From assembly GCA_949293555.1 (NCBI GenBank), contig CASFDV010000002.1:170210-234209 (forward strand): 64,000 bases of DNA. The letters are read 5' to 3'. Origin of the DNA: an uncultured Bacillota bacterium (GTDB lineage: Bacteria > Bacillota_I > Bacilli_A > RFN20 > CAG-826). The translations under genes and the position numbers were made by a program. Below the pieces are notes generated by a model. It was not told the origin of the DNA. It ran no database searches and saw nothing but the letters and a program-made list of their open reading frames with translations. This document shows positions 13,816 through 49,313 of the stretch, piece after piece (the stretch's first letter is position 1; every line of letters starts with the position of its first letter).

Positions 13816-13820
13816 TTTTT

Positions 13821-14814: not shown

Positions 14815-14828
14815 TGTTAACGCTACCA
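14815..14828. promoter_or_regulatory. Second LacI-type operator before the sugar operon
   Basis: TGTTAACGCTACCA keeps the central ACGC and TG/CA ends but departs from the consensus at two positions. It lies 30 bases before the binding-protein ATG. No convincing -35/-10 pair was found around it. Confidence 0.4.
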
Positions 14829-14858
14829 CGCAATGTAAATAACAAAGGAGGCATACAA

Positions 14859-16094: not shown

Positions 16095-16098
16095 GCGG

Positions 16099-17929: not shown

Positions 17930-17933
17930 TCCC

Positions 17934-33022: not shown

Positions 33023-33036
33023 GAGGGATGCCCAGG

Positions 33037-33065
33037 GGGCCGCGGGGGACCGCGGCCCTTTTCTC
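33037..33065 (+). terminator. Terminator of tuf
   Basis: GGGCCGCGG, GGGA loop, CCGCGGCCC, then TTTTCTCTT. Perfect 9-bp stem. Confidence 0.93.
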
Positions 33066-33092
33066 TTGCCCACACGCGCGCGGGATGTGCCT

Positions 33093-33098
33093 TATAAT
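33093..33098 (+). promoter_or_regulatory. Consensus -10 seven bases before the first RDD start (leaderless candidate)
   Basis: TATAAT followed by CCACCCC and ATG 33106; no SD. The best -35, TTGCCC at 33066-33071, is 21 bases away, longer than ideal. Confidence 0.5.
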
Positions 33099-33105
33099 CC
33101 ACCCC

Positions 33106-34767
33106 ATGGACTCCAAGCTGAAGCAAGCGGGCTACTGGAGGAGGACCTTCGCCTTCCTCATCGACGCCCTTTTCCTCATCCTTTGCACCGTCATCGTCTA
33201 CGCGAACCTCACCTCGACCTACCTCATCTCCGCGATGGGAGGGGACAAGGCGAACGAGGAGATGCTCCGGTACGCCTACGACACCGGGCTCTACAACATG
33301 GAGGAGACCGAGGAGGGAGGCTACCGCTTCAAGGACGGGAACGGGTATCTCAGCTACGCGGCCGAGCCCCAGTCCACCACGACCTCGAATTCCGAAGGGA
33401 AGGAGGAGACGATCGTCACCCAGGAGAAACGGGGCTACCTCCTCTACTGGGACGCGATGTGGTCCTACTGGACCGGCTTCTTCCTCGAGGACGAGCGGGC
33501 GGTCCCCTTGAGCGAGATGGACGCGGAGGGGAACGAGATCGAGCTCCCGCGCCCGACGGGGACGGAGGATCCGAACTTCGCCTCCTACGGGCGCTACTTC
33601 AGCCAGGAGTTCATGGGGCTTCCTGAGCTCAGCGAGGTCGAGGAGGCGACGAACTGGAAGGAATACGCGGAAACCCACGAGGACTGGGAGCGGAACCTTT
33701 CCGACCGGGGCATGGGCCAGGGGAAGGTCGGCTACTACCGCTATTCCCTGAACGAGGAGGGATTCGTGGACTACTCGCTCCCGCCCGTCCTCACGAGCGC
33801 CTCGGAGGAGGGGCTTTCCTCCCCGCAGACGAGCGCCCAGTGGTCGAGCGCGCTCCTCGGCCATTTCTATGATCCCGACGTCGGGGAAGGCTGCTACTTC
33901 GACCTCGCAGACTGGGCGATCGGCTGGGGGGACAGCCCCCAGGCCTACTACCGGGAGCGCTATGACGCGATCAACGACTACGCCTCCTATGCGCTCGACG
34001 TCGCCTACGCCCCCTTCCTCTTCCTCTTCTTCTACCTCATCCCCGCCCTCATGCGGGACGGGAAGACGCTGGGGAAGGCAATCCTCCGCATCGCCGTGGT
34101 GAAGCGCGAAGGGACGAGGATCGGGCCCAAGGAGAGGCTGCTCCGGCCGCTCGTGGTCATGGCGATGCTTTCCCTCATCTTCATCCCGAACCTCTGGCTC
34201 TCCCTCATGTTCCTGATGCTCGTCGTCCTTCTGGACTTCATGCTCATGATCCTCCACAAGTCCCACCTCACCGTGGAGGACATGATCTTCGGCACCATCG
34301 TCATCGACGCGAGGGAGTCCCTCTGGTTCCGGAGCGAGGAGGAGAAGGAACGCTACCTCGCCGCCCATCCGGAGCGGAGCAAGTCCGCCCCCAAGACCCC
34401 GGAGGAGGAGCAGCTGGAGAAAGAGCTCCAGATCCTCGACCTCTCGACGATCGACGCGCGGAGGGAGGAGGCGAGGAGGATGACTTCCTTCGACGCGTTC
34501 GAGGAGGAGCAGGACCGCCTCCACAAGGAGAGGATCGAGTCGATCCGCGCGGGGACGCTTCCCAGGAAGGAAGAGGTTCATTCTGGGGAAGAGGAAGGAA
34601 CGGGGGATATTCCCGCGGAATCTGCGAAAACTTCGCAGAATCCCTCCGAAAGCGAGGATTCTTCCGGAATCCAGGAGGAAGGGGACCCTTCTGCGGAGGT
34701 TTCGGGGGACAAGGACGAAAATTCCTCCCCGGAATCGGATTTTGCCGACGAAGGCGGGGACGAATAG
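33106..34767 (+). CDS. RDD-family membrane protein with large extracytoplasmic loop, 553 aa
   Basis: RDD domain split by an insertion. GYWRRTFAFLIDALFLILCT is the first RDD helix with its Arg and Asp; roughly 250 residues of hydrophilic, Tyr-rich loop follow, then ALDVAYAPFLFLFFYLIPAL, the RDD motif GKTLGKAILRIAVVKREGTR, two further helices and LTVEDMIFGTIVID. A C-terminal cytosolic tail of about 150 acidic, Ser/Glu-rich residues follows. The start is ATG 33106, where the family begins. Function of RDD proteins is largely unknown; some have been linked to ion or solute exchange. First of three tandem homologues. Much smaller RDD proteins (about 150-250 aa) are usual. Confidence 0.85.
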   Translation: MDSKLKQAGYWRRTFAFLIDALFLILCTVIVYANLTSTYLISAMGGDKANEEMLRYAYDTGLYNMEETEEGGYRFKDGNGYLSYAAEPQSTTTSNSEGKEETIVTQEKRGYLLYWDAMWSYWTGFFLEDERAVPLSEMDAEGNEIELPRPTGTEDPNFASYGRYFSQEFMGLPELSEVEEATNWKEYAETHEDWERNLSDRGMGQGKVGYYRYSLNEEGFVDYSLPPVLTSASEEGLSSPQTSAQWSSALLGHFYDPDVGEGCYFDLADWAIGWGDSPQAYYRERYDAINDYASYALDVAYAPFLFLFFYLIPALMRDGKTLGKAILRIAVVKREGTRIGPKERLLRPLVVMAMLSLIFIPNLWLSLMFLMLVVLLDFMLMILHKSHLTVEDMIFGTIVIDARESLWFRSEEEKERYLAAHPERSKSAPKTPEEEQLEKELQILDLSTIDARREEARRMTSFDAFEEEQDRLHKERIESIRAGTLPRKEEVHSGEEEGTGDIPAESAKTSQNPSESEDSSGIQEEGDPSAEVSGDKDENSSPESDFADEGGDE

Positions 34768-34770
34768 GGA

Positions 34771-35859
34771 ATGGCCCGGGAAGACGACTACGCGGAGGAG
34801 GGCTATCCCCTCGCCCCGCTCCTCCTGAGGATCAGCGCCGCGGCGCTGGACGCGGTCTTTGCCTTCACGCTTTTCTTCCTTCTCGCCGTCTTCCTATATC
34901 CGCATGGCGGCTTCCCTACCTTGGGGAAGGCGATCGGGATGGAGGAGGACTGGGCGACGATCGAGCGCTACCTCGCCGCCTCCGGACTCATGGAGACGGA
35001 GGAGGCGGACGGGATTCTCGTCCCCACCCAGGACATCGTCTCCGACGACTGGGAGGACTACGAGAGGAGCATCCGTTCCTACTATTTCGACTACCAGCTT
35101 CTCGAGGACCCTTCCCTGAACCCGAACCCGCACCCGGAATGGGCGAGGGAGCGATGGTACAACGTGAACGTCCTCGGGCTTCCGGAAAGCGAGTCCGCGG
35201 TGAACGAATCCCCCTTGTTTTCCTTCGGCAGGGACGAGGAAGGGAACGCGGACCTCGACGTTCCCGCGGAACTGAGGCCCGGGCTTTTCGAGGAAGGGGA
35301 GGGGGGAGAGCCCGTCCTTGGGGAAGAGGCCGAGAAGGACCTTCTTTCCTTCTACCAGGAGCAGTACCGGATCGCCCAGGACAGGATCGTCGCCGAGGAG
35401 TTCTACCAGGCGCCCTATTCCCGTTACGAGACGGGGCATTTCCTGACTCTCGGGATCGCCCTTTCCATTCCCGTGCTCGTCTTCTATCTCGCGGTGCCCC
35501 TCCTTTCCCGGAACGGGGCGACGTTCGGGAAGATGATCTTCCGCCTGGGGCTCCTTCGCTACGACGGGATGCCCTTGCCGCGCCTCCTCATCGTCCCGCG
35601 GGCGATCCCTCTTCTCTTCAGCCTTCTGGGGGCGCTTCTCGCCAACGAAGTCATCGTCTCCGGCTCGATCCTCCTCCTCGTCTTCCTCATCAGCCTGACC
35701 ACCGGGCTCCTCACCCCCAAGAGGAGGGCACTCCACGACTACTGCGCGATGTCCGTCGTGACCAGGGCCTGGGCCAGCGAAAGGGCCCATGAGCCCGACT
35801 TCCTCGACATCGTCCGGAACGGACCTCCCGGGAAGGAGAATGAGGAAGATGGAAGGTAG
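34771..35859 (+). CDS. RDD-family membrane protein, second of three tandem homologues, 362 aa
   Basis: Same plan as its neighbours: a first helix around LLRISAAALDAVFAFTLFFL, a hydrophilic loop of about 170 residues containing WYNVNVLGLPES, a second helix FLTLGIALSIPVLVFYLAVP, the RDD motif GATFGKMIFRLGLLRYDGMP, two more helices and RALHDYCAMSVVT. The loop motif WYNVNVLGL recurs as WYNVNVIGL in the third gene, showing that loops are homologous between these two. It begins 3 bases after the first gene's stop. Function unknown. Confidence 0.85.
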   Translation: MAREDDYAEEGYPLAPLLLRISAAALDAVFAFTLFFLLAVFLYPHGGFPTLGKAIGMEEDWATIERYLAASGLMETEEADGILVPTQDIVSDDWEDYERSIRSYYFDYQLLEDPSLNPNPHPEWARERWYNVNVLGLPESESAVNESPLFSFGRDEEGNADLDVPAELRPGLFEEGEGGEPVLGEEAEKDLLSFYQEQYRIAQDRIVAEEFYQAPYSRYETGHFLTLGIALSIPVLVFYLAVPLLSRNGATFGKMIFRLGLLRYDGMPLPRLLIVPRAIPLLFSLLGALLANEVIVSGSILLLVFLISLTTGLLTPKRRALHDYCAMSVVTRAWASERAHEPDFLDIVRNGPPGKENEEDGR

Positions 35860-37024
35860 GAAGTACGTCGAGGCGCCTCTCCACAGGCGCTTCCTGGCCT
35901 CCCTCGCCGACCTCGCCCTCTTCCTTTTCGTCTTCCTCGGGATCTTCGCGATCTTCGAGGCGGCCTTCTCCGCGAGCGACTGGTACAAGGGGGCGCACCA
36001 AAGGACGGAGGCGCTCCTTTCCGAGTCTCTTCTCTTCGTCCAGGGCGAGGACGGGGAATGGGGCGCCCCGACGGGGGCCAAGGACTACCTCGCCTACCAG
36101 GACCTCCTCCTTTCCTACTATGAGGAAGGCATCCACGAGACCGTGCCCGAGGAAGCCCCCGACCTCAAGGGGAGAAGCCTCGCCTACTGGTACAACGTCA
36201 ACGTCATCGGCCTCGAGGACATCGACCGCGCCTTTGGTTACCTGGAGCTTCCGCCCCCTGCGAAGGAAAAGGGGAAGGAGCTCTTCCAGTGGCCCCTCCT
36301 TCCGGACGGGACGGTGGACAAGGGCGGCCTCGCCGTGCCCGCGGACAAGCTTTTCCAGAGCGGCTCGGCCTACGACGAGGAAGGGAACGCGCGCCCCCTC
36401 GCGAACCTGACGGAAGAGGGAAGGGAGGAGCTCCTCCTCTTCTTCTATGACGAAAGCGGGGCTTCCCCTTCCGTCTACTACAACGTCGCGGAATCCTTCC
36501 TCTCTTCCTCCCCCTACCAGTCGCTCCTCAACGAGGAGAAGGCGATCCGCAGGGCCTACCCGATGGCGATCGGGCTCGCCATCGCCTTCCCCCTCGTCTA
36601 CCTCCTGCCGGCACTTCTTTTCCGGAACGGGGAGACTATCGGCAAGAAGGCCCTGAAGATCGGCCTCGTCAACACGCTCGGCTACCAGGTGACGAGGCCG
36701 CAGATGTGCCTCCGGACGCTTCCTTCCTACTTCTTCGGGGCGATCATCCTCCTCTTCGTCCCCCAGGAGACGATCGCCCTCGCGGTCCTTCTTGGCGTCC
36801 TCTTCCTTTCCTACCTCCTCTCCCTCTTCACGAACGGCCACCGGGCGATCCACGACTACATCGGGGCGACGATCGCCGTCGACATGCGCTCGAGCTCGGT
36901 CTATCGCTCGCGGGCGGAGGAGGAGGCGGCCGAGGAACTCATCCGCAAGGCAGGCGAGGAGGGCGAGCGCCTCCTGGAGGCTGGCGAGAAGGCACTTGAA
37001 GAGGAGAGGAAGGAAGAGGGATAA
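35849..37024 (+). CDS. RDD-family membrane protein, third of three tandem homologues, 391 aa
   Basis: APLHRRFLASLADLALFLFV is the first RDD helix; a loop of about 190 residues with WYNVNVIGLEDIDRA follows; then MAIGLAIAFPLVYLLPALLF, GETIGKKALKIGLVNTLGYQ, two more helices and RAIHDYIGATIAVD. A charged C-terminal tail of about 50 residues is helical. The start is at ATG 35849 with AGGAG ten bases upstream; ATG 35840 in the same frame is possible. It overlaps the end of the second gene by 11 bases, so the three genes form one transcript. Confidence 0.83.
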   Translation: MEGRKYVEAPLHRRFLASLADLALFLFVFLGIFAIFEAAFSASDWYKGAHQRTEALLSESLLFVQGEDGEWGAPTGAKDYLAYQDLLLSYYEEGIHETVPEEAPDLKGRSLAYWYNVNVIGLEDIDRAFGYLELPPPAKEKGKELFQWPLLPDGTVDKGGLAVPADKLFQSGSAYDEEGNARPLANLTEEGREELLLFFYDESGASPSVYYNVAESFLSSSPYQSLLNEEKAIRRAYPMAIGLAIAFPLVYLLPALLFRNGETIGKKALKIGLVNTLGYQVTRPQMCLRTLPSYFFGAIILLFVPQETIALAVLLGVLFLSYLLSLFTNGHRAIHDYIGATIAVDMRSSSVYRSRAEEEAAEELIRKAGEEGERLLEAGEKALEEERKEEG

Positions 37025-37154: not shown

Positions 37155-39116
37155 ATGGAAGTCAAGATCGAAGAGCTCTCCAAGGTCTTCCGGAGCCACA
37201 AGGGCTCCCACATGACCGCGGTCGACCGCATGTCGTTTACGATTCCGGACGGCAAGCTGGTCGGTCTCCTCGGCCCCTCGGGATGCGGCAAGTCCACGAC
37301 GCTCTACATGATCGCCGGACTTCATAAGCCGACCGGGGGGCATATTTATTTCGGGGAGGAGGAAGTCACCAACGTCCCGCCGGAGAACCGCGGGATCGGC
37401 CTCGTCTTCCAGAACTACGCCCTCTACCCCCACTTCTCCGTCCAGCAGAACATCACCTTCCCGCTCGACAACGTCCGCCTTCCCGGCGCCTACGGGAACG
37501 AGCAGGACGCCGTGAGGAGCGCGAAGGACGCCCTTTCCGAGCTTTCCCTCAAGATCAGGAGGGACAGGATGGCCCTGGGGAAGTATGAGAAGATGGAAGG
37601 GGAAGGGACCCTCGCCACCGAGGAGGAGATCGAGTCCCTCAGGAACGACCTCGAGAGCAAGAAGGCCGCGCTCGACGAGGAGCGGGACGTCTACTCCATC
37701 AAGGCCAAGGCCGCCTCGGAACGGAGGAGGGAGCGCCTTCACCGGAAGCACGTCGCTTCCGCGGAAAAGGACGTCCTCCGCGGGGAGAAGACGCTCCTCG
37801 TCCTTGAGAAGGAGCATGCCGACGAGCGCGACATCGAGCTCACGAAGGAAGATAACGCCAGGCGCCAGGCCGCCCTCGACAAGGTGCGCTCGGAGCACGA
37901 GGCGCTCGAAAGGAATGCCCAGGAGGCCGAGAACGCCTACGCCGAGCTGAAGGCCCGCAGCCCCGAGCAGGCCTCGGGGAAGGCATACCGCCTCGCCCTC
38001 AAGGCGTTCAAGGAGGCCGGGAAGAAGCTCCGGTCCAGGGAGCGTCCCGTCCGCGAGCTCGCGCGCATCCGCGAGGAAGCGCCTCTCGACGAGGAGAGGA
38101 AGGTCGAGCTCGAGTCCCGGCTCCACGAGGCCGAGGAGGCGCTCGAGGCCGCCAAGACCGCCTTCGAGGAACTGAAGAAGAGCAACCCGCGCCAGGCGAA
38201 GATCGCCAACAAGAAGCGCCTCTCCCAGAGCGAGAAGACGGCGATCGCCCACGAGATGGCGAAGATCGTCGACATCGAGCCCTACCTCGCGAGGAAGCCG
38301 AAGGAGCTCTCCGGCGGCCAGCAGCAGCGCGTCGCCATCGCCCGCGCCCTCGCGAAGAAGCCGTCCGTGCTCCTCCTCGACGAGCCGCTCTCGAACCTCG
38401 ACGCACGCCTCCGCCTCCAGACGAGGGAGGAGATCAAGCGCATCCAGCGCTCGACGGGCATCACCACCGTCTTCGTCACCCACGACCAGGAGGAGGCGAT
38501 GTCGATCAGCGACGTCATCGTCGTCATGAAGCTTGGCATCATCCAGCAGATCGGGAAGCCCCAGGACGTCTACGACGAGCCGGCGAACCTCTTCGTCGCG
38601 AAGTTCCTCGGCTCGCCCGCGATCAATGTCTTTGACGGCGAGATCAAGGACGGGAAGCTTTACCTGAACGGCGTCCTCTTCGACGAGGACGAGTGCTACG
38701 GGAAGCCTTACCGCAAGACCGTCTACGACGGGAAGGCGCTCACCCTCGACGACGTCGCCGAGAAGAACGTCGACGCCGGGGTCGACATCGAGGAGAACCC
38801 CGAGGTCGCCCTCCAGACCGTCCCGAGCCACGTCGAGGAGGTTCATGACCGTCCCGTCAAGATCGCCGTCCGCCCCGAGGCCTTCGGGCTCGCCGCCCCC
38901 GCCGCCAAGCGCGGGGTCGTCCCCGTCGCCGTCGAGATGATCCAGCACATCGGGCGCGACATCTCGATCGTCGGCGAGGTCAAGGAGCAGCCGGGGAACG
39001 GCGTCAAGGTCATCATCCCGAGCGAACTCCGCGAGAAAGTCGGCGGCAAGGAGGAGATCCGTCTCCTCGCCAAGCGCTTCTACGTCTTCGAGGAAGAGGG
39101 GGAGAGGATCAAGTGA
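37155..39116 (+). CDS. UgpC/MsmK-type ABC ATPase with giant coiled-coil insertion, 653 aa
   Basis: Walker [21 protein letters not shown] and Q-loop [20 protein letters not shown] lie in the first 110 residues. Then about 270 residues rich in Glu, Lys, Arg and Ala (for example [20 protein letters not shown]) intervene before [20 protein letters not shown], where the normal helical subdomain resumes; signature [15 protein letters not shown], Walker [16 protein letters not shown] and switch [13 protein letters not shown] follow. All catalytic parts are intact, so the insertion is tolerated and probably functional. Family members without it are about 370 aa. The long heptad-like helices suggest a protruding coiled coil in the helical subdomain that faces the permease or a partner. 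Mycoplasma homologues beside membrane nucleases carry an insertion in a similar place. Confidence 0.92.
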
Positions 39117-40189
39117 GCCTAGCTGCCAGCCCCCGGGCGAATCTCAAGGAGAACATCCGCTACGCCTTCAGCCGGCCGACGCCGGCGATGGAGCGCGAGC
39201 ACGAGGAGATGGTCATCCGCTCCACCCTTTCGGTGAAGCGCGCCTCGCGCCTGAGGATCGGGGAGGCGGGGAAGGCGTGGATCGCGCTCATCCCAGCGCT
39301 CATCTTCCTCACCTTCTTCATGATCTACCCGATCATCAACTCCTTCCTCATGTCCTTCTTCGAGAAGTTCACCTTCGTCGGAGGGACGAACACCTCCTTC
39401 GTCATCACCAACGTCATCGCCGCGCTCCAGAACTCGCGCGTGAAGGACCCGGTCTTCGGCTTCGGGAACTACGTCAACGTCCTGAACGACAACCTCTTCA
39501 CCAAGGCGCTCGGAAACACGGCGCTCATGGTCGTCTTCAGCGTTCCCCTGACGATCATCATCGGGCTTCTCATCGCCGTCGCCCTCTATTCCATCAAGCC
39601 TTTGCAGGGATTCTTCCAGACGGTCTTCTTCCTTCCCTACGTGACGAACACGATCGCCCTGGGCATGGTGTTCCAGACGATCTTCTCCAGGGGCGGCCTC
39701 TTCAACGCGATGTTCGGCCTCGGGGACGTGGCGTGGATCGACGTCACCGCCAACCGCTGGTCGATGTTCTTCGTCCTCGTCGTCTACGCGATCTGGAACG
39801 GCCTCGCCTTCAAGATCCTCGTCTTCATGTCGGGGCTCGCCTCGATCGACCGCCAGTACTACGACGCGGCCCGGATCGACGGGGCGAAGCGCTCCACCAT
39901 CCTCCGCCGCATCACCATCCCCCTCCTCAGCCCGCAGATCCTCTACATCACGATCACGAGCTTCATCGGCGCCTTCAAGGCTTACACCGAGGTCATGTCG
40001 ATCTTCGGCGGGAACAACGACTTCGGCGGCACGACCAAGCAGGAATGGATCACCGTCGTCGGCTACATCTACACCTACATCGACAGCGCCCCCGACCGCG
40101 CGGCGGCCGGGTCGATGGTGCTCCTCGTCATCATCCTCCTCATCACCCTCGTCCAGATGGTGGTGAGCAAGAAGAGGGTCCACTACTAG
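39113..40189 (+). CDS. ABC transporter permease, MalF/UgpA type, 358 aa
   Basis: Starts with GTG in a GTGA overlap with the ATPase stop. About 60 polar residues precede the first helix [23 protein letters not shown] loop [20 protein letters not shown]. Typical six-helix core. The polar N-terminal extension is longer than usual and could contact the ATPase insertion; that is conjecture. An ATG inside (EREHEEM) is an alternative, shorter start. Confidence 0.92.
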
Positions 40190-40200
40190 GAGGGAACGAG

Positions 40201-41184
40201 ATGGCAGCGCACGAGACCTACTTCGCCACGACGAAGCAGCTGCGGCTATACAAGGCCAAGCAAATCCTCCACAACGTCCTCGTCTATGGCTTCCTTACGC
40301 TCGTGGGGATCTTCATCGTCATCCCCTTCCTCTACATGATCATCGCGAGCTTCCGGAACCCGACCGCCTTCGACCAGGAGGACGCCTTCCACATGTTCGT
40401 CCTCTTCCCGAACTGGTGGAACGACAGCCTCCTCCAGCCCAACTACACGCTGGACAACTACATCACCGTCTTCACCTACCGGGGCGCGAGCGGCCATTCG
40501 ATCAACTTCGGGCTCTACTACGCGAACACCCTGTTCGTCTCCGCCGTCTCGACCATCTTCACCATCGCGACCTCGGTCCTCGCCGCCTTTGCCTTCGCGC
40601 GCTGCGAGTTCAAGGGGAAGAACCTTCTCTTCACCATCCTCCTGGCCACGATGATGATCCCGGGCGAGATGATGGTCATCACCAACTACCAGACGGTCAA
40701 GATCATCGGCTGGGAGAACACGTATAGCGCCCTGATATTCGTCCACGGCGTCTCCGTCTTCTACATCTTCTACCTCCGCCAGACCTTCCAGCAGATCCCC
40801 AACGAGCTCTTCCTCGCCGCGAAGGTGGACGGCTACGGCCACTTCCGCTACCTCTGGAGAGTCATGATCCCCATCGCCTCCCCGACGATCCTGACGATCG
40901 CCATCCTCTCCCTCATGGGCGCCTGGAACGCCTACGTGTGGCCGAACCTCGTCGCCTCCGGCACTTACAAGAACGCCTGGATGTTCGGGATGAAGGAGGG
41001 CTGGTCGATGTGGCTGGTGTCCAACGGCCTCATGAACCTCTTCTCCAACACCGACACGGGCCTCGACCACCAGACGGTCCGCATCGCCGGCTCCGTCATC
41101 GTCACCGCGCCTCTCTTCCTCTTCTTCCTCATCTTCCGGAAGTACATCATGCGCGGCATCTCGCGCTCGGGCATCAAGGGATAG
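40201..41184 (+). CDS. ABC transporter permease, MalG/UgpE type, 327 aa
   Basis: Partner permease. FLTLVGIFIVIPFLYMIIAS is the first helix, TILLATMMIPGEMMVITNYQ a conserved helix, AAKVDGYGHFRYLWRVMIPI the EAA loop, and it ends FRKYIMRGISRSGIKG. SD AGGAGGG at 40187-40193. It lies 11 bases after the first permease. Confidence 0.93.
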   Translation: MAAHETYFATTKQLRLYKAKQILHNVLVYGFLTLVGIFIVIPFLYMIIASFRNPTAFDQEDAFHMFVLFPNWWNDSLLQPNYTLDNYITVFTYRGASGHSINFGLYYANTLFVSAVSTIFTIATSVLAAFAFARCEFKGKNLLFTILLATMMIPGEMMVITNYQTVKIIGWENTYSALIFVHGVSVFYIFYLRQTFQQIPNELFLAAKVDGYGHFRYLWRVMIPIASPTILTIAILSLMGAWNAYVWPNLVASGTYKNAWMFGMKEGWSMWLVSNGLMNLFSNTDTGLDHQTVRIAGSVIVTAPLFLFFLIFRKYIMRGISRSGIKG

Positions 41185-41203
41185 CCCGAAGAACTTGGCC
41201 AAA

Positions 41204-41221
41204 CGGGACATCGGAGTCCCG
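41204..41221 (+). promoter_or_regulatory. Intercistronic hairpin before the first binding-protein gene
   Basis: CGGGAC (41204-41209) and GTCCCG (41216-41221) with a 6-base loop, not followed by T residues. The SD AGAAAGGA lies just after it. Such hairpins can protect or partly end transcripts, allowing more binding protein than permease. Confidence 0.45.
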
Positions 41222-41248
41222 CGGCAATATCTAGAAAGGACAAGAAAC

Positions 41249-42883
41249 ATGCAGAAGAAAGCCTTCTCTCTTCTCGCCTTCTCCGCCATCGCCATCGCGG
41301 CCGGGGCCGGGCTGAGCTCCTGCGGAGCCCCTTCCACGGGCGCCGACTACCTCCCGGACATGGGCGTGGACACCCGCGGGGTCGAGATCACCTTCTGGAC
41401 CGGCTTCGGGGACACCGTCTCCGGGCAGCTCAACCAGGTGATCGAGGACTTCGAGGAAGCGACGGGGATCGTCGTGAACCACGAGTCCATCCAGGGCGGC
41501 TACGACGGGCTCGCCAAGCAGATCAACCTGAGCGCCTCCAGCGACACCTACCCGAACGTCGCCGTCGGCTACCCCGACCACATGGCCTCCTACCGCGACT
41601 CCGACATCATCATGAGGCTCGACCAGTTCATCGAGCACGACGGGGAGATCCCGGCCACCCGGACGGGCACCGCCGCGGACCCGAACGCCGAGGGCACCTT
41701 CGAGGAGCTTCCGGCCTTCGACTACGACGACTTCTTCCAGGACTACAAGATCGAGAACGAGTCCCTTGAGTACAAGGAGGACGGGACGGGCTACATCCTC
41801 GGCGTCCCCTTCAACAAGTCGACCGAGGTCATGGTGTATAACGCCACCTTCTTCGAGAACCCGCTCATCATCGAGGCCGGCATCAAGCTCCCCGAGACCT
41901 GGGACGAGGTCCTGACCGAGGGGAAGGAGATCATCTCCTGGATCAAGGGCAAGGACGGCTTCGGCAAGATCATCATGGCCGACGGCACCGTCTACGAGGA
42001 CATGAAGGACGTCCCGACCCACGAGGACCCCACCCATCCCGGCACCATGCTGACCGACCCGATCCTCCTCAACCTCGACAACGTCGCCGAGGATAGCTTC
42101 TACCCCCTCTCCTACGACTCCCAGGCGAACTTCTTCATCACCGCGGTCCGCCAGTGGGGCGGTGCCTACACCGAGGTCGACCCCGTCACCCTCGAGGGCA
42201 AGATCGTCTTCGATAACGACGGGACGAAGGCCGCCCTCACCAAGCTCAACGAGCTTTACGAGGCCCACGTCCTCGGCATCCCGGCGAGCTTCGGCGAGAG
42301 CAGCTACTGCAGCGCCCACTACAAGGTCAACGAGTCGCTCATGAACGTCGGCAGCTCCGCCGGCGTCAACAACTGCGCCGCCGCCCCGGCCTTCGACAGC
42401 AAGATCGCCCCGGTTCCCTATAACAGCGCCGACAGCAAGTTCGTCATCTCCCAGGGGACGAACCTCATCCTCTTCAAGGCCCACTCCGGCGACGAGGAGC
42501 TGAACGACAAGCAGCTGGTCGCCTCCTGGAAGCTCCTCAAGTACCTTTCCCAGGTGGGGAACGGCAAGTTCGCGATGCTTTCCGGCTACTTCCCGACCTG
42601 CGAGACCGCGCAGCAGGACGATGGCTACCAGGAGTTCATGAACGCCGAGCCGGGGAAGGGCGAGACCGAGGCCTACACCCTCCAGCGCTACGCCGCCCAG
42701 GTGAACAACAACGTCTACATGGACGAGGACGAGGCCTGGACGAAGTTCGTCGACCCGGGCTTCAGCGGCTCCTCCTTCATCCGCCAGAGGGTGGACACCA
42801 TCACCGGGCAGGTGTTCATCGACGGCAAGAGCCCCGATGAGGTCATCCGCACGATCTACAACGACCTCCGCGACTACCAGTGA
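41249..42883 (+). CDS. ABC substrate-binding lipoprotein, 544 aa
   Basis: Signal peptide MQKKAFSLLAFSAIAIAAGA with lipobox LSSC. Solute-binding protein family 1: ITFWTGFGDTVSGQLNQVIE, FEEATGIVVNHESIQGG, YPNVAVGYPDHMASY and LGVPFNKSTEVMVYNATFF. Longer than sugar-binding proteins (about 420 aa). Start ATG 41249 with AGAAAGGA; the frame is open upstream but without homology. It has a paralogue immediately downstream that shares the FWTGFGD, YPDHMA and PFNKSTE motifs. Confidence 0.92.
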   Translation: MQKKAFSLLAFSAIAIAAGAGLSSCGAPSTGADYLPDMGVDTRGVEITFWTGFGDTVSGQLNQVIEDFEEATGIVVNHESIQGGYDGLAKQINLSASSDTYPNVAVGYPDHMASYRDSDIIMRLDQFIEHDGEIPATRTGTAADPNAEGTFEELPAFDYDDFFQDYKIENESLEYKEDGTGYILGVPFNKSTEVMVYNATFFENPLIIEAGIKLPETWDEVLTEGKEIISWIKGKDGFGKIIMADGTVYEDMKDVPTHEDPTHPGTMLTDPILLNLDNVAEDSFYPLSYDSQANFFITAVRQWGGAYTEVDPVTLEGKIVFDNDGTKAALTKLNELYEAHVLGIPASFGESSYCSAHYKVNESLMNVGSSAGVNNCAAAPAFDSKIAPVPYNSADSKFVISQGTNLILFKAHSGDEELNDKQLVASWKLLKYLSQVGNGKFAMLSGYFPTCETAQQDDGYQEFMNAEPGKGETEAYTLQRYAAQVNNNVYMDEDEAWTKFVDPGFSGSSFIRQRVDTITGQVFIDGKSPDEVIRTIYNDLRDYQ

Positions 42884-42891
42884 GGAAACGA

Positions 42892-44457
42892 ATGAACAAG
42901 AAGAAACTCACGCTGGCGCTCCCGCTCCTCCTCGCCGCCTCGATCGCCGGGGGCTCCCTTTCCTCCTGCTCCCTGGGGGACGGGGTCGACCCCTACTCCG
43001 TCGACGTGAACATGGAGATTCCGGAAGGCACCACCATCCAGTTCTGGACCGGCTTCGGCGACGACATCAGCGGTCCTCTCCAGGAGCTCCTCGCCCAGTT
43101 CACCGACGAGACGGGGATCGTGGTGGAGTACGAGAGCAAGAGCGGCTACGACAGCCTCAAGCAGAACATCGGCCTTTCCGCCTCCTCGAGGAGCTACCCG
43201 CACCTCGCGCTCGCCTACCCCGACCACATGGCCGACTACGTGATGCGCGACATCATCGTCCGGCTCGACTACTACGTGGAGACCGACGAGGGAGAGGACA
43301 AGATCACCCCGGACGACTTCTACGAGGACTACATGGTCGAGAACTACGAGGTCGAGTTCGACGAGGAGGGCGAGCCCTACCTCATGGGCATCCCCTTCAA
43401 CAAGTCGACCGAGGCGATGACCTACAACAAGACCTTCTTCGAGTGGGCCGCCAAGCTCGACCCCTCGATCCACGTCCCCGCGACCTGGGACGAGGTCCGC
43501 TCCGTGGGGCACGCGATCAACGACCTTCTTGAGAAGGGGACCGCCGCCTCGGGGAACAGCACCTACTTCGGCAAGATCGCCGGGCCGGAGGGAGAGACGT
43601 ACAGCACGTGGGAGGAGGTGAACGCCGCTGGCCTCGCCCAGGGCGACGTCCTCGACTTCCGCCTCGTGACCGCCGAGCTCTTCCATCCCCTCGGCTACGA
43701 CTCCGGGGCGAACTTCTTCATCACCATGGTCCGCCAGTGGGGCGGGGAGTACACCGGGATCGACGAGGAGACCCGCGAGGGCTACGTCGCCTTCGACTCC
43801 GACGTCGTGAAGGAGGCCCTCGCCTACTTCAAGACGCTCCACGAGGAGGACGTCGTCGCGATCCCCGCCGACTTCGGCGAGACTTCCTACTGCTCCGGCC
43901 CCTTCACCGAGCTCCAGTCGGTCATGAACATCGGCTCCACCGCCGGGACCGCCCATAGCGTCCCCGCGGCCGCCCGCTTCGTCACCGACGTCGCCCCCGT
44001 CCCCTACAAGGACGCGGAGCACATGTACGTCATCTCCCAGGGGACGAACCTCGTCCTCCTCGACAAGGGGACGGAAGAGGAGCGCGCCGCCGCCTGGAAG
44101 CTCCTCAAATGGCTGACCAAGTGGCATAACGGCGAGTTCTGCGCCGAGACGGGCTACTTCCCGAGCTGCGAGTACAGCGAGAAGTCCGCGGCCTACCAGG
44201 AGTTCCTGACCAGGGAGCCCCAGAACTACGCCGACTACGTCGCCCAGTCGACCTCGCTCGTGAACAGCGAGCACTACATCAACCCGGAGAAGGGCTGGAC
44301 GAAGTTCGTCGACACCCCCTTCGTCGGAAGCTCGATCGTCCGCGATTCGGTCGACGCCATCATGCAGATGCTCTTCTTCGGCGAGGGGGCGACCCCGGAG
44401 TCGGTCATCCAGGACCGCTACCAGGACATCCGCGCCGCCGGCATCGAAACGAGGTGA
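42892..44457 (+). CDS. Second ABC substrate-binding lipoprotein, 521 aa
   Basis: Paralogue of the preceding protein: IQFWTGFGDDISGPLQELLA, YPHLALAYPDHMADYVMRD, LMGIPFNKSTEAMTYNKTFF, and FFITMVRQWGGEYTGIDEET. Lipobox SSC after a 25-residue signal peptide. It begins 8 bases after the first gene's stop with GAGGAAACGA as weak SD. Two adjacent binding proteins for one permease pair suggest either a broadened substrate range or successive capture of related ligands. The next gene, a nuclease lipoprotein, begins 4 bases later. Confidence 0.92.
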   Translation: MNKKKLTLALPLLLAASIAGGSLSSCSLGDGVDPYSVDVNMEIPEGTTIQFWTGFGDDISGPLQELLAQFTDETGIVVEYESKSGYDSLKQNIGLSASSRSYPHLALAYPDHMADYVMRDIIVRLDYYVETDEGEDKITPDDFYEDYMVENYEVEFDEEGEPYLMGIPFNKSTEAMTYNKTFFEWAAKLDPSIHVPATWDEVRSVGHAINDLLEKGTAASGNSTYFGKIAGPEGETYSTWEEVNAAGLAQGDVLDFRLVTAELFHPLGYDSGANFFITMVRQWGGEYTGIDEETREGYVAFDSDVVKEALAYFKTLHEEDVVAIPADFGETSYCSGPFTELQSVMNIGSTAGTAHSVPAAARFVTDVAPVPYKDAEHMYVISQGTNLVLLDKGTEEERAAAWKLLKWLTKWHNGEFCAETGYFPSCEYSEKSAAYQEFLTREPQNYADYVAQSTSLVNSEHYINPEKGWTKFVDTPFVGSSIVRDSVDAIMQMLFFGEGATPESVIQDRYQDIRAAGIETR

Positions 44458-44461
44458 GAAC

Positions 44462-45991
44462 ATGAAAAAGGCATACCGCATCCTCTCCTTCCTCTTCGCG
44501 CTCGGGGCCATCGGGAGCGTCCTCGCCTCCTGCGACCAGGGGACCACTTCCTACAGCACCCTCCCCGAGGGCCACGAGAACGATCTCGTCGAAACCCCGA
44601 TCACGGACGCCCTCGAGTTCGAGTTCGCCGACGACGTCGCCAACTACAACTTCAAGGAGGAGGCCGACTCCGGCAAGACCGGCGTCATCTACGGCCTCAT
44701 CCACCTCATGGGCGTGACCGACGGGGACACCATCTCCTGGAAGGGCGAGCTCGGGACGGGCGAGGCCTCCAGCTCCCTCCGCATGCTCGGCATCGACACC
44801 CCCGAGTCGACCGCCAACGTCGACCCTTGGGGCGTGAAGGCGAGCAAGTTCGCCTCGAGCGTCCTCGAGGGCTGCTACCGCTACGCCCTCGTCAACGACA
44901 TCAAGACCACCACGGGCGACCAGTCGGGCTACGACAAGATGGACAGCAACGGCACCCGCTACATGGGCTTCCTCTGGTACCAGAAGACCGAGGACTCCGC
45001 CTGGCGCTGCTACAACCTCGAGTGCATCGAGCAGGGCTATAGCGAGAACGGCCTCTTCAACGACAGCGACCTCGGCTATCTCCAGAGCTTCATCGACGCG
45101 GGCGAGAAGGCCAAGGCCATGAAGCTCCGCGTCCCGGGCAAGGTGAAAGACCCTGACTACGACTACAGCGACAACGTCGTCGAGACCACCATCTGGTACA
45201 TCCGCGACCACTACGACGAGATCGGCATCAACATGGAGGCCGGCACCTCCGGCAAGCGCCTCCGCGTCACCGGGCTCGTCGTCGGCATGATCGGCGACAA
45301 CCTCGTCCTCCGCGACATCGTCCGGAGCGACTCGGACGGGGACGGGGAGAGCGATCAGGACGGGGAGTACCGCTCGATCTACGCCTACGCCGGCTACGGC
45401 TCCTCCCTCGGCTCGATGGTCGGGGTCGGCGACATCGTCCGCTTCTACTGCCGCGCGACGAAGTTCCCCAAGGACAGCGACACCATCCAGCTCTCCGACA
45501 TGGAGACGGCCTCCTACGGCGACTACAAGTTCGAGGTGATGGCGACCTACGGATCGCCCGAATGGCAGGAGCTCGCCGGCGAGGGGAACTCCATCGATCC
45601 CGTCGTCCCCGAGAGGATCCCGGAGACGAAGGAGGAGCTGGGCGCCCTCGCGGGCCTCTACGTCACCCTCCCCGTCCAGATCCGCGTCGCCCAGGGCGGC
45701 GAGTACGACGAGGACGGGAACTGGATCGAGTCCGGCATCAACTCCTACTACAACAAGGGCAAGAGCGGCACGACCATCTACGCCTACCTCGACGGGACGA
45801 GGATCGTCTGCAACCTCCGCATCGACCACGAGTCCTACCCGCGCCTCAGCGAGAACGACTTCGCCGAGGGCCAGAGGTGGGAGGTGACCGCCTACCTCAA
45901 CCCCTACTTCGACAACTACCAGCTCGCTCTCCTCAACTACACGCCGACCAACTGCCATCTCATCGAGACCTCCTCCGAGGCCGCCCTCTAA
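44462..45991 (+). CDS. Staphylococcal-nuclease-type (SNase) lipoprotein with OB-fold domain, 509 aa
   Basis: Signal peptide with lipobox LASC (Cys24). SNase-like domain: GVTDGDTISW (Asp87, Asp89, Thr90), SLRMLGIDTPES (Arg107, Asp112, Thr113, Glu115) with the same 5/1/2 spacing as Arg35, Asp40, Thr41, Glu43 of staphylococcal nuclease; DPWGVKASKFASS is the conserved helix; Arg166 in NGTRYMGFLW is a candidate for the second active-site Arg. The domain is enlarged by loops. The second half holds an OB-like domain (RVTGLVVGMIGDNLVLRDIV) and further beta strands. It probably cleaves DNA or RNA at the cell surface. It sits 4 bases after a binding-protein gene in the ABC operon, so breakdown and uptake appear linked. 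Confidence 0.85.
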   Translation: MKKAYRILSFLFALGAIGSVLASCDQGTTSYSTLPEGHENDLVETPITDALEFEFADDVANYNFKEEADSGKTGVIYGLIHLMGVTDGDTISWKGELGTGEASSSLRMLGIDTPESTANVDPWGVKASKFASSVLEGCYRYALVNDIKTTTGDQSGYDKMDSNGTRYMGFLWYQKTEDSAWRCYNLECIEQGYSENGLFNDSDLGYLQSFIDAGEKAKAMKLRVPGKVKDPDYDYSDNVVETTIWYIRDHYDEIGINMEAGTSGKRLRVTGLVVGMIGDNLVLRDIVRSDSDGDGESDQDGEYRSIYAYAGYGSSLGSMVGVGDIVRFYCRATKFPKDSDTIQLSDMETASYGDYKFEVMATYGSPEWQELAGEGNSIDPVVPERIPETKEELGALAGLYVTLPVQIRVAQGGEYDEDGNWIESGINSYYNKGKSGTTIYAYLDGTRIVCNLRIDHESYPRLSENDFAEGQRWEVTAYLNPYFDNYQLALLNYTPTNCHLIETSSEAAL

Positions 45992-46016
45992 AGGAATAGG
46001 AAAGGACTAGCAATCC

Positions 46017-47117
46017 ATGAACAAGAAGAGCCTCCTCCTCGCCCTCCCCGTCCTCCTTCTCGCCTCCTGCGGGAACGGGAATCCCGACGGGCTTCCCGCC
46101 ACCAACCAGGAGCTCGTCGACTACGTCGCCGGAAGAAGCGGCCTCGCGATCCTCGACAACGGCCAGCACCTCCGCTACGGGGACGAGGGGAACCACCTCC
46201 CCTCCGGCTCCGTCGTGAACCTCGTCCCGAGCGTGAACGCGAAGATCTGGGACGGGGCGGCCGCCCAGACCATCGCCGTCCCCATCGAGTGGACGGTGGA
46301 CAAGGAGGACTCCTGGACGATCGACGAGCAGGACGACGTCGTCGTCTGCACGCCGGAGACCCCCCTCTACGGGGAGCCCGACCTCGAGAGCACCTTCACG
46401 GGCGCCATCACCTGGGGGGACGCCAGCGCCTCCATCACCGTCAGGGTGACGATCCAGGCCATCCAGGAGCCGCCCGTCGAATACACCTCGATCGGAGAGC
46501 TCTGGAACGACTTCTTCGTGGACAAGACCATCACCACCGGGACCTACGTCACCGTCACCGGCTACGTGACCGGCGTCAACAAGAGCCGCCAGAACGTCTA
46601 CATCCAGACCGACGAGTACGCGGTCCAGCTCTACAAGGCCGACGCCTATAGCGCCCTCTTCACCGAGGGGAACCTCATCACCGCGACCGGCTCCATCACC
46701 AACTACTACGGCCTCGAGCTCGAGGACATCAGCTCCGTCGTCGCCTCCGATGCGGAGGGGATCCCCGCGGCCGTCGCCACGCCCCTCACGAAGGAGATCA
46801 TCGACTCGGTCACGGCCAACGGCACCAAGTGGGACAACTCCATGGTGAAGGCCACCGCGACTCTCGTCGAGGACCAGACCGAGGAGGATAGCGACGAAGG
46901 CACCTATCTCATGCGCCTCGAGGACGGCGGGGAGTTCTACCTCTTCACCAAGCACACGATCGACGAGGCGTGGAAGGCGGAGTACGACGCCCTCCTCCAG
47001 GATCCCGCGAACATCGGGAAGTCCTTCGAGGTCCAGGGCCTCGTCTCCTTCTACTCCAAGACCTCGATGTTCGAGGTCATCCCCTTCAACGACAACTGGG
47101 TCGCCCTCGCCGAGTAG
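46017..47117 (+). CDS. OB-fold lipoprotein, 366 aa
   Basis: Signal peptide with lipobox LASC. An N-terminal Ig-like beta domain (residues about 25-150) is followed by an OB-fold region beginning YTSIGELWNDFFVDKTITTG with YVTVTGYVTGVNKSRQNVYI and ITATGSITNYYGLELEDIS. The segment AAVATPLTKEIIDSV recurs nearly unchanged in form in the 908-aa lipoprotein at 49314 (AAVAATPLTAEIVENW), so the two share a module. OB folds of this YhcR type often accompany extracellular nucleases. It lies 25 bases after the SNase gene and ends in a terminator, so it closes the operon. Ligand unknown. Confidence 0.8.
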   Translation: MNKKSLLLALPVLLLASCGNGNPDGLPATNQELVDYVAGRSGLAILDNGQHLRYGDEGNHLPSGSVVNLVPSVNAKIWDGAAAQTIAVPIEWTVDKEDSWTIDEQDDVVVCTPETPLYGEPDLESTFTGAITWGDASASITVRVTIQAIQEPPVEYTSIGELWNDFFVDKTITTGTYVTVTGYVTGVNKSRQNVYIQTDEYAVQLYKADAYSALFTEGNLITATGSITNYYGLELEDISSVVASDAEGIPAAVATPLTKEIIDSVTANGTKWDNSMVKATATLVEDQTEEDSDEGTYLMRLEDGGEFYLFTKHTIDEAWKAEYDALLQDPANIGKSFEVQGLVSFYSKTSMFEVIPFNDNWVALAE

Positions 47118-47135
47118 GCGGAGGAGGCTTCCGGA

Positions 47136-47162
47136 AGGCGGGCCGACGCGCCCGCCTTTTCC
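47136..47162 (+). terminator. Terminator of the nuclease-linked ABC operon
   Basis: AGGCGGGC, CGACGC loop, GCCCGCCT, then TTTCC. Eight-bp stem. Confidence 0.9.
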
Positions 47163-47386: not shown

Positions 47387-49075
47387 ATGAAGCGCAAGTT
47401 CGCAGCGATTCCCCTTCTCGTCCTCGCCGGCGGAGCGTTGGTCCTCGCCGGGTGCGACCAGAAGACCACCATCTCGGTGCCGAGCAGCACCGAGCCCACG
47501 AGCTCCTCCACCTCGGAGGGCCCCGCGATCGTCGACCCGGATCCCTCCACCCCGTGGATGGACGAGATCGAGGAAGGCACCTACCGGCTCGGCCTCTACC
47601 AGAGCACCCTTGAGAAGTACCTCTGGCTGACCGGGGACATGGACGGCTTCTACCTCGCCTCCACCGAGGATTATTCCGAGGCCGCGGACGTCGTCGTCGC
47701 TGCCTCCGGGGACGGCTGGACCCTCAGCCCGACCGCTGGCGAAGGCAAGGGCAAGTACATCGGCGGCGAGCATGTCACTGGTTCCGACGGTAAGGAGCAC
47801 GACAACATCCTCTTCCAGGCCGATCCCTTCGTCTGGAAGTGGAACTCCGAGGTCGGGTATTTCTATGCGACCGTCGGGGAGAACGACCTTTACATCGGGA
47901 ACTACCAGTCCTACACGACCTTCAGCCTGAGCAACGTCAAGTACGCCTCGACCGCGGGGAACAACCACGCCCGTCTCTTCCTCGAGGAGGCCAAGGTCGA
48001 GGTCGAGCCTGACCCCGTCGCGGACTACGTCGAGACCCCGGTCAGCGGGACAACCTACGCGATCGGGATGTACAACCCCCTTATGACCCGCCAGTACTAC
48101 CTGCTCGGCGAGATGTCGGGCCACTACGGCGCCTCCACGGGGGACATCGAGGAAGCCGACGGCATCCTCATCACCGAGGGCGAGTACGGCTGGACCCTCC
48201 AGATGACCTCCGGGGAGGAGAACGGGAAATACATCGCCGTCGTCATTAGCGGCACCTTCACCAACTTCGCCTTCCAGGAGAACCCCTTCTACTGGGAGTG
48301 GAACGAGGAGCACAAGACCTTCCTCGGGAGCCCGGCCGGATCCGAGGCGCTCTACTTCATGGGCACGACCGGGGAGTACAACACCTTCAACGTCGTCGCA
48401 AACGAGAAGCTGACGGACGAGACCGCCTCGATCGCCCACCTCTACGTGGGGGGGAAGACCGAGACTCCCGTGGAGCCTGACGAGCCCGTCGTCCTCGAAG
48501 GGGAGACCCATCTCGCCCTGAGCTTCGATAGCGCCTTCGGGAACACCGACGGGGACACCGGCGGCCTCACCAACTCCTACCTCAAGCCTTGGTCGACCGA
48601 CGTGACCGACGAGGGCGGCGCGATCGCCAGCTACAATATGAGCGGCTGGGGACTGGCCAAGCAGAAGGACTACCTCCGCCTCGGCGGGAAGGCGGTCCAC
48701 GCTGACGCCACCGGGGACGAGGCCGGCTACGGCTACTTCCAGATCGACACCGCGACCACTTCCGCGATCGCCGGCATCAACATCGATGTGAAGAACACGC
48801 ACTCTACCTTCACCGCCCTCCACGTCCTCGTGGACGACGCCGCCTTCCCGGCCGTCCCTGCGGACGATGCGGGCACGACCAGCCTTCCCGAGGGCCTCGT
48901 TGACCATGTCGAGGTGACCTCCCTCCCCGCGGGCTCGACCATCGCGATCGTCCCGAGCGAGGGCGTCGCCTGGGCCGCCGGGAGCTACTTCCGCATTTTC
49001 GTCGAGAAGGCCGACGGCTCCAATAACGGCGGCGTGGACTTCACCGAGCTCCGTCTCGTCGAGGCCGCTGCCTAA
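47387..49075 (+). CDS. Large lipoprotein with two internal repeats, 562 aa
   Basis: Signal peptide with lipobox LAGC, then a Ser/Thr-rich linker. Two homologous beta modules of about 130 residues: the first from EEGTYRLGLYQSTLEKYLWL (about 47570-47990), the second from SGTTYAIGMYNPLMTRQYYL (about 48045-48460); both contain a GWTL block and an F-x-W-x-W-N block (PFVWKWN, PFYWEWN). The C-terminal 190 residues form another beta domain (ETHLALSFDSAFGNTDGDTG). No catalytic motif seen. Surface-exposed binding role is the simplest guess. SD AAGGAG at 47371-47376. It has its own terminator. Confidence 0.8.
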   Translation: MKRKFAAIPLLVLAGGALVLAGCDQKTTISVPSSTEPTSSSTSEGPAIVDPDPSTPWMDEIEEGTYRLGLYQSTLEKYLWLTGDMDGFYLASTEDYSEAADVVVAASGDGWTLSPTAGEGKGKYIGGEHVTGSDGKEHDNILFQADPFVWKWNSEVGYFYATVGENDLYIGNYQSYTTFSLSNVKYASTAGNNHARLFLEEAKVEVEPDPVADYVETPVSGTTYAIGMYNPLMTRQYYLLGEMSGHYGASTGDIEEADGILITEGEYGWTLQMTSGEENGKYIAVVISGTFTNFAFQENPFYWEWNEEHKTFLGSPAGSEALYFMGTTGEYNTFNVVANEKLTDETASIAHLYVGGKTETPVEPDEPVVLEGETHLALSFDSAFGNTDGDTGGLTNSYLKPWSTDVTDEGGAIASYNMSGWGLAKQKDYLRLGGKAVHADATGDEAGYGYFQIDTATTSAIAGINIDVKNTHSTFTALHVLVDDAAFPAVPADDAGTTSLPEGLVDHVEVTSLPAGSTIAIVPSEGVAWAAGSYFRIFVEKADGSNNGGVDFTELRLVEAAA

Positions 49076-49100
49076 GGTTCCTTTCCAGGGACAGGGAAGA

Positions 49101-49127
49101 GGGGCCCGCTCAGGCGGGCCCCTTTCC
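49101..49127 (+). terminator. Terminator of the repeat lipoprotein gene
   Basis: GGGGCCCGC, TCAG loop, GCGGGCCCC, then TTTCC. Perfect 9-bp stem. Confidence 0.9.
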
Positions 49128-49218
49128 TGTTCTCCTTGCCGACGTCCGAAACTGGGCGATGCCAAGGCGTTCTTCCGGGTTGGAATACCAGATTACTCCC
49201 TTTCTCCTTCCCTTTCGA

Positions 49219-49237
49219 CATGAAAGCGGATTTCATG
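49219..49237. promoter_or_regulatory. Perfect inverted repeat upstream of the 908-aa lipoprotein gene
   Basis: CATGAAA-GCGGA-TTTCATG. It resembles the 13802 LacI-type operator (TGAAAGCG core, TTTCA arm) with one extra central base. It is 77 bases before the gene start, consistent with a regulator site. Confidence 0.5.
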
Positions 49238-49313
49238 AAGTCAAGAGAAAAGTCCTGTATTCCACCGGAAAACTTCCTGCTAAAGTTGGCTCGTAATAGA
49301 AGGAAGGAGATCT

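Follow-up and report, generated by a model that had tools for sequence, protein, structure and literature searches.

A surface-nuclease-linked ABC operon of an uncultured Bacillota bacterium, related to mycoplasma systems and probably serving the uptake of short oligonucleotides

We analyzed a stretch of 64,000 nucleotides from an uncultured Bacillota bacterium (GenBank assembly GCA_949293555.1, contig CASFDV010000002.1, positions 170,210 to 234,209), hereafter called the window, and studied a set of ATP-binding cassette (ABC) transporter and nuclease genes at positions 37155-47117. Seven tightly packed, co-directional genes on the + strand encode an ATPase with an insert, two permeases, two binding lipoproteins, a staphylococcal-nuclease-type (SNase) lipoprotein and a further lipoprotein. 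The ATPase (37155-39116, 653 amino acids) is of the UgpC/MsmK/MalK type, matches Pfam ABC_tran and carries a charged insert of about 245 residues. Its gene overlaps by 4 bases with that of permease A (39113-40189), which is UgpA/MalF-like. After a gap of 11 bases follows permease B (40201-41184), which is UgpE/MalG-like and has the C-terminus GISRSGIKG; both permeases match BPD_transp_1. The open reading frame list starts permease B far upstream, and the ATG at 40201 is preceded by GGAGGG. Binding lipoprotein 1 (41249-42883) begins 64 bases behind permease B and overlaps by 4 bases with binding lipoprotein 2 (42880-44457); both match SBP_bac_8. The SNase lipoprotein (44462-45991) starts after 4 bases and the last lipoprotein (46017-47117) after another 25. 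The best NCBIfam matches of the ATPase and the permeases are Ugp-type, all below the cut-off. An earlier note, made from the sequence alone, had described this gene set and its close spacing, and the coordinates (overlaps of 4 bases, gaps of 4-64 bases) and domain searches bear it out. That note had also closed the transcript with a single terminator. A hairpin with a 10-pair stem at 47134-47159 on the + strand, with a T-rich part within and after the stem, is a plausible candidate; however, its z value of -0.9 is no better than that of shuffled sequences, and it is absent from the list of the terminator pattern scan.

The SNase lipoprotein has its nuclease domain at about residues 84-245, with a beta-rich part behind it, and the Pfam SNase match scores 24.3 bits (cut-off 21). 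Residues D89, R107, D112, T113, E115 and R166 stand at the positions of the staphylococcal active site, which we take to be D21/R35/D40/T41/E43/R87. When 17 SNase rows were aligned, D89, R107, T113, E115 and R166 were invariant, and D112 was D or N. The predicted structure matches staphylococcal nuclease structures. Alignment and structure therefore agree with the earlier statement that the active-site residues are correctly spaced, and we regard the lipoprotein as a predicted nuclease. The OB-fold that had been assigned to the last lipoprotein found no such backing, there being no Pfam match for its gene. In many relatives, the SNase gene is likewise followed by a member of the same loose cluster, and some longer genes behind the SNase match PF01336.

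When the window SNase was searched in 31 genomes (its own and relatives), it was matched in 19, and 18 neighbourhoods were examined. Permeases, binding protein(s) and SNase stand in the window's order at 17 of these 18 loci, with the ATPase truncated by a contig end at one of them; at the remaining locus, a binding protein and the SNase are the only parts seen. An SNase profile search of the class gave matches in 255 of 395 genomes, and we inspected 100 chosen stretches from this search in addition to the earlier 18. Loci with the linked set occur in family codes f1, f2, f3, f5, f8, f10, f12, f14, f19, f21, f23, f26, f27 and f28. In f16, the SNase lies near the binding protein, usually without adjoining it. 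At L039 (L numbers denote loci), an SNase and a binding protein occur with no permeases within 14 kb, and at L084 nothing exceeded the threshold. None of 31 loci around SNases (L090-L120, from the six family codes f15, f17, f18, f20, f24 and f25) has a permease A, permease B or binding-protein match of 100 bits; the SNase-matching genes there encode 161-336 residues in 30 cases and 1648 in one. Therefore, the presence of an SNase does not by itself entail that of the ABC genes.

The linkage was also tested independently of the SNase, at the best 80 of 577 relatives in a permease-B scan of named genomes. An SNase of at least 170 bits was found at 69 of these 80 loci, chosen by permease B alone, and the common order is ATPase, permease A, permease B, binding protein, SNase. 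Four of the other 11 loci lie at a contig edge (L178, L181, L182 and L201). At L185, L186, L190, L192, L194, L195 and L196, the operon has, in the place of the SNase, a lipoprotein of the same loose cluster without a clear SNase match, which is possibly another nuclease or a nucleic-acid-binding part. The titles among the 80 loci include Bacilli, Erysipelotrichaceae, Haloplasma, Anaeroplasma, Acholeplasmataceae and 41 of Clostridia type (Oscillospiraceae, Lachnospiraceae, Christensenellaceae and others, sorted by the submitters' titles as given). The operon also stands in the record of Haloplasma contractile (L224). All 41 Clostridia-titled loci have an SNase within 9 kb. Across these loci, the link between the SNase and this ABC system is conserved.

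We then compared the permeases, A and B concatenated, in a quick tree of 72 rows and a careful tree of 66 rows. The careful tree omits L309, L310, L312, L313, L319 and L320, which are rows with long branches and one second copy; L310, a second permease pair of an f11 genome, falls inside the linked clade in the quick tree. All 51 linked rows form one clade (bootstrap 100, Shimodaira-Hasegawa-like approximate likelihood-ratio test 99) apart from 15 outgroup rows, namely E. coli Ugp, E. coli Mal, the window's second ABC system (WA, at 12263-17929) and 12 more, with the root placed with the E. coli rows. This second, sugar-type set has its ATPase reading frame on the minus strand, its binding protein at 14814-16094 and its permeases reaching to 17929. 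Within the linked rows, those with the mycoplasma code form a clade of 14 (100/99) and the others a clade of 37 (92/98); the SNase-type core is a clade of 32 (100/100). The window permeases do not group with Ugp/Mal/Msm-type sugar or glycerophosphate importers. A grouping with maltose-type systems and the lack of a conserved SNase link had been named beforehand as the outcome that would speak against the reading of the earlier note; the 51-row clade and the conserved link are the opposite. The computed trees show that the permeases of the linked systems share a common ancestry. In the quick tree, the Clostridia-titled rows nest among rows of the window's class, and therefore transfer between lineages or wrong titles are possible.

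Families f22, f29 and f11 read TGA inside genes, like mycoplasmas. At their loci, the ATPase and permeases A and B follow the SNase in that order; wherever a binding protein was detected, it stands ahead of the SNase. An SNase-like gene precedes the ATPase at 11 of 14 mycoplasma-code loci; at L290, L294 and L295 no SNase was found before the ATPase. An extra SNase lies away from the operon at L150-L152, L154-L156, L158, L161, L166 and L167. At L162, the binding protein matches PF03305/PF03202 (MG185/MG260 family), the SNase matches PF00565, and a DHH/DHHA1 protein stands behind permease B. This order matches what we take to be the order of MG185-MG190, MG185-MG189 presumably being the equivalent operon. 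Both window binding proteins have weak NCBIfam matches (3e-5 and 1.8e-10, far below the cut-off) to the P68 surface-lipoprotein family, presumably a mycoplasma family. The link that had been drawn to the mycoplasma nuclease-ABC loci is thus supported: the same parts occur in mycoplasma-code genomes, and the permeases fall in one clade. In the simplest reading of these comparisons, the system would have existed before the mycoplasmas. We do not count gene order as defining this type of operon.

The ATPase insert is located between the Q-loop and the signature, a stretch of 301 residues in the window protein compared with 54-58 in uninserted relatives. This stretch is 43% E/K/R/D/Q, a composition that fits a coiled coil. 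We counted an insert as present when at least 120 residues separate the Q-loop from the signature. Among 139 ATPases, near-copies included, 53 have it, 8 are intermediate and 78 are without; it is found in 20 of 20 mycoplasma-code ATPases and in none of the 32 Clostridia-titled ATPases measured. The insert state changes at least three times on the permease tree (parsimony, 45 tree rows), and by parsimony the window and mycoplasma inserts would have arisen separately. A shared insert was considered as a marker of the system and rejected on these grounds. Thus, these counts do not support the inserted ATPase as part of one set common to mycoplasmas and the window, as which it had been taken.

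Next, we consider the binding proteins. The AlphaFold2 model of binding protein 2 has a mean predicted local distance difference test score of 92.8. In a Foldseek search with this model, the first 25 rows were chains of one dinucleotide-binding protein and its mutants (E 8.5e-23), with UgpB next. According to the PDB titles, this is an ABC transporter dinucleotide-binding protein with bound uridylyl-3'-5'-phosphoguanosine (UpG). Its structures (7c0f-7c1b) probably stem from work reportedly published by Chandravanshi et al. in FEBS J in 2021. VIA-align against this protein gave Z 34.0 and a root-mean-square deviation of 2.6 over 378 residues with 20% identity. The profile E value to it was 9.5e-42, although over a shorter best stretch than the match to E. 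coli UgpB (4.7e-34). In single-sequence searches of the PDB, both window binding proteins rank the dinucleotide-binding protein first (7c0y/7c0f in the case of binding lipoprotein 1). The sugar-type binding protein at 14814-16094 ranks a maltose-type protein first and the dinucleotide-binding protein 11th.

The positions mutated in the PDB titles were placed on the printed alignment, with the numbering shifted by two (from the T240A entry). The correspondences between the solved protein and binding protein 2 are Y56=Y90, F79=Y113, N81=D115, S127=S176, Y224=Y337, T240=S353, Y246=H359 and Q274=Q387; four are identical, two conservative and two different. We regard these as probable ligand-site positions from the existence of the mutants. 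It should be mentioned that remote alignments may misplace columns in such a residue comparison. We aligned 51 family members, namely the two window proteins and 49 selected from the permease-B loci. Y113, D115, S176, S353 and Q387 never vary among them, a Tyr stands at Y90 in 49 members and at Y337 in 50, and 18 have one in column 359. All six of Y90, Y113, S176, Y337, S353 and Q387 are present in four mycoplasma-code binding proteins, except for W instead of Y90 in one; the profile scores there are weak (29-55 bits, three proteins), and the alignment columns are possibly misplaced. Two Tyr and two Ser that hold the phosphate are kept in UgpB and in glycerophosphocholine- and UpG-binding proteins and not in glucose-binding proteins (PMC12718374, 2025). 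These probably correspond to Y90, Y113, S176 and S353. E. coli UgpB has E at the Y337 column and G at the Q387 column, where the UpG-binding protein agrees with the window protein. The Y/Y/S/S set is also present in a UgpB-like binding protein at L303, a locus whose permeases place it in the outgroup. From these residues and folds, we infer that the cargo is most likely dinucleotides and short oligonucleotides. The earlier proposal of a nucleic-acid rather than a sugar substrate is thereby supported and narrowed.

The neighbours of the operon in relatives include DHH/DHHA1 (NrnA-like) pairs, SurE, a gene of the uridine kinase family and an endonuclease I lipoprotein. Several NrnA proteins from Firmicutes prefer 2-4-mers (PMC9757072). 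We searched 62 genomes, which have an examined operon or sister locus and are not a random sample, and all 62 have an NrnA-like match among the matches listed. When matches of at least 257 bits among those listed are counted, 21 of the 62 have an NrnA-like gene no more than 10 kb from permease B, compared with 1.29 expected from genome sizes (P 1.7e-20, which treats related genomes as independent). These 21 genomes fall in eight family codes (f12, f14, f16, f18, f19, f22, f27 and f29). A fixed-window count gave 0 of 20 outgroup loci, in shorter stretches of about 7-11 kb, and 6 of 155 linked loci within 5 kb; it was not used as a control. Two f18 genomes have sister operons with the order ATPase, permease A, permease B, binding protein, NrnA, SurE and no SNase in the operon. 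Sister permease systems at L298 and L299 also occur without SNase, with a gene for a metallo-beta-lactamase-fold hydrolase beside the ABC genes (in L298 with an RMMBL match just below the cut-off) and a 5'-nucleotidase-like gene, which adjoins the binding protein in L298 and lies about 10 kb off in L299. In seven of the 41 Clostridia-titled loci (L204, L212, L215, L229, L233, L235 and L239), a fused NT5C-guanylate kinase gene lies upstream, separated from the ATPase gene by an RDD-cluster gene. At L213 (Anaeroplasmataceae-titled), a 992-residue lipoprotein with endonuclease I and metallo-beta-lactamase domains is encoded behind the operon (15315-18290).

In the window itself, three adjoining RDD-type genes precede the operon (33028-37024). 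The first and third have RDD matches, and the third encodes an RDD-family membrane protein (35789-37024, + strand). Genes of this cluster lie upstream of the operon in many relatives. Two more lipoprotein-like genes follow beyond a tRNA-Lys gene (47387-52040); the product of the second has 908 amino acids, a Big_2 domain and a weak match, far below the cut-off, to the ExeM/NucH nuclease family.

Marker genes of wall and nucleotide synthesis were also searched. PF00905 (penicillin-binding transpeptidase) has no match in the window's genome, and 10 of 38 genomes match. The argument of the earlier note presupposes a walled lineage for this genome, which the missing match does not support. The order relatives G011, G019, G020 and G022 also lack a PF00905 match, and G025 of the same order has four. 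A wall loss separate from that of mycoplasmas is possible in this order. Clostridia are generally walled bacteria. Because six other operon-bearing genomes match PF00905 (G025, G034, G072, G082, G107 and G372) and the operon occurs in Clostridia-titled records, the part of the earlier proposal that places the origin of the system before wall loss can be kept, although the window's genome itself, judged by PF00905, does not exemplify it. AICAR formyltransferase (PurH) has no match in the window's genome (a draft, 97% complete) and matches in 3 of 58 genomes of the order. Dihydroorotate dehydrogenase (DHO_dh) has none either, compared with 33 of 58 order genomes, 22 of them above the cut-off. 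With one marker tried per pathway, these misses fit a dependence on outside purines and pyrimidines and do not prove it. The Pfam SNase model gave no match in this same genome, although the gene is present and was found with the window SNase as the query. Therefore, the misses of PurH, DHO_dh and the penicillin-binding family by family models are weak evidence.

The window operon belongs to a widespread family of nuclease-coupled importers, which includes the mycoplasma systems. Taking together the gene set and its conservation, the common ancestry of the permeases, the relation of the binding proteins to a dinucleotide-binding protein and the closeness of NrnA-like genes in many relatives, we propose, with a probability of roughly 0.7, that the operon serves to feed on nucleic acids. 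The SNase lipoprotein would be anchored on the outside and cut DNA or RNA into short pieces. The two binding lipoproteins would catch dinucleotides or slightly longer oligonucleotides via the phosphodiester, and permeases A and B, driven by the ATPase, would bring them in. NrnA-like DHH/DHHA1 phosphoesterases, with SurE or 5'-nucleotidases in some relatives, would then finish the fragments to nucleotides and nucleosides, and these products may supply a cell without the marker genes of purine and pyrimidine synthesis. Here we infer the nuclease activity, the ligand and the transport by this pump.

Several observations weigh against this proposal. In VIA-align, the next kinds of protein, GacH and mycobacterial UgpB, reach Z 32.7, close to 34.0, and therefore the fold alone separates ligand kinds little. 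Identity to the closest solved relative is 17-20% over the fold. The PDB titles call its UpG "endogenously bound"; because UpG came along with the protein, it may not be the natural ligand of this relative. The dinucleotide-binding protein receives 55 bits from the sugar-type protein at 14814-16094 and 44 bits from binding protein 2, and therefore the single-sequence result rests on rank. Two of the eight mutated positions are not kept (N81 is D, and the column of Y246 is variable), and Y337 differs in two of five further linked rows. A mycoplasma binding protein searched on its own against the PDB found no relative. As for the neighbours, the NrnA-like genes of the window's own genome lie far from the operon, and most NrnA-SurE sets in Clostridia-titled records are on the opposite strand; they are therefore neighbours and not operon members. 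Moreover, SNases occur without family ABC genes in view at L081, L083, L087 and L088 (also at L146), and seven of the 80 permease-B loci have, in the place of the SNase, a lipoprotein in which no SNase domain was detected.

Among the alternatives, the one that survives best, although we consider it unlikely, is that the same scavenging operon takes nucleosides or mononucleotides, produced by the SNase together with surface phosphatases. PnrA-type proteins are a binding-protein family different from that of the window. The named nucleoside system, P48, is such a PnrA-type protein (PMC12892991). The mycoplasma operon is usually described as an importer of nucleic-acid precursors (PMC3585158, PMC9740415), and other mycoplasma ABC systems import nucleosides (PMC12892991, PMC12838404). 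However, the nearest solved relative of the window proteins holds a dinucleotide, and NrnA-like genes, whose relatives prefer 2-4-mers (PMC9757072), lie near the operon in many relatives. It is still less probable that a glycerophosphodiester (UgpB-like) or sugar importer stands beside a nuclease gene by chance. The SNase gene accompanies the pump in many family codes and in Clostridia-titled records, E. coli Ugp, E. coli Mal and 13 other systems fall outside the permease clade, and at Q387 and Y337 the window protein resembles the dinucleotide-binding protein, not UgpB; against this stand the sub-cut-off Ugp-type matches of the ATPase and permeases and the place of UgpB as next-best solved relative, which shares the four presumed phosphate-site residues. 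We give very little weight to the idea that removal of extracellular DNA, as in biofilms or traps, is the main task of the nuclease and that the ABC genes are co-expressed for another reason: some mycoplasma nucleases do degrade extracellular traps (PMC9740415), but the relationship of the binding proteins and the presence of NrnA, SurE and 5'-nucleotidase genes nearby suggest intake, and two sister operons pair the pump with cytosolic enzymes without an SNase in the operon.

Somewhat less confidently than for the window operon itself, we think that one ABC family of many Bacillota and mycoplasmas imports di- and oligonucleotides and works together with a surface nuclease, joined in many lineages by an NrnA, SurE or 5'-nucleotidase gene nearby. 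If this is true, a complete route for eating RNA and DNA as short fragments, not as nucleosides, has been masked by sugar and glycerol-phosphate labels. The findings also favour new labels for genes with best family matches to UgpC, UgpA and UgpE. Because the system is found in many uncultured bacteria, some without a PurH match, living on RNA and DNA in this manner may be common, with the host, food or neighbours as the source. The mycoplasma form is known. A literature search, which covered few subscription papers, returned no paper that describes the operon beyond mycoplasmas or its use for importing oligonucleotides, and its spread, the dinucleotide-binding kinship and the NrnA/SurE company were not met there. 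Through the dinucleotide-binding relationship and the NrnA and SurE neighbours, the supposition of precursor import in mycoplasmas (PMC3585158, PMC9740415) becomes a test with one ligand class.

Finally, we compare the operon with known systems. The dinucleotide-binding protein of 7c0f-7c1b is the best match of binding protein 2 by profile and by fold, with Y56, S127, Y224 and Q274 identical and F79 and T240 conservatively replaced; it differs in its low identity, at N81 and Y246, and in being about 120 residues shorter than the window precursor. UgpB of the UgpBAEC system is the next-best profile match, and the phosphate Tyr/Ser set is probably common to both; in contrast, the UgpBAEC permeases fall outside the linked clade, and E. 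coli UgpB has E/G at the Y337/Q387 columns. Staphylococcal nuclease shares its fold and catalytic residues with the window SNase, which differs in being a lipoprotein with about 260 extra C-terminal residues, beta-rich in the model. A mycoplasma counterpart is known in Mycoplasma agalactiae, where the set MAG_5030-MAG_5070 is co-transcribed and import of nucleic-acid precursors was proposed (PMC3585158). This operon and that of the window both bring together a binding lipoprotein, an SNase lipoprotein, an ATPase and two permeases. The mycoplasma systems have the order binding protein, SNase, ATPase, permeases and one large lipoprotein (PF03305/PF03202 at L162), whereas the window has its nuclease and two smaller binding proteins after the permeases. 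The mycoplasma permeases belong to the same clade as those of the window; an insert is present in the mycoplasma ATPases too, by parsimony of separate origin.

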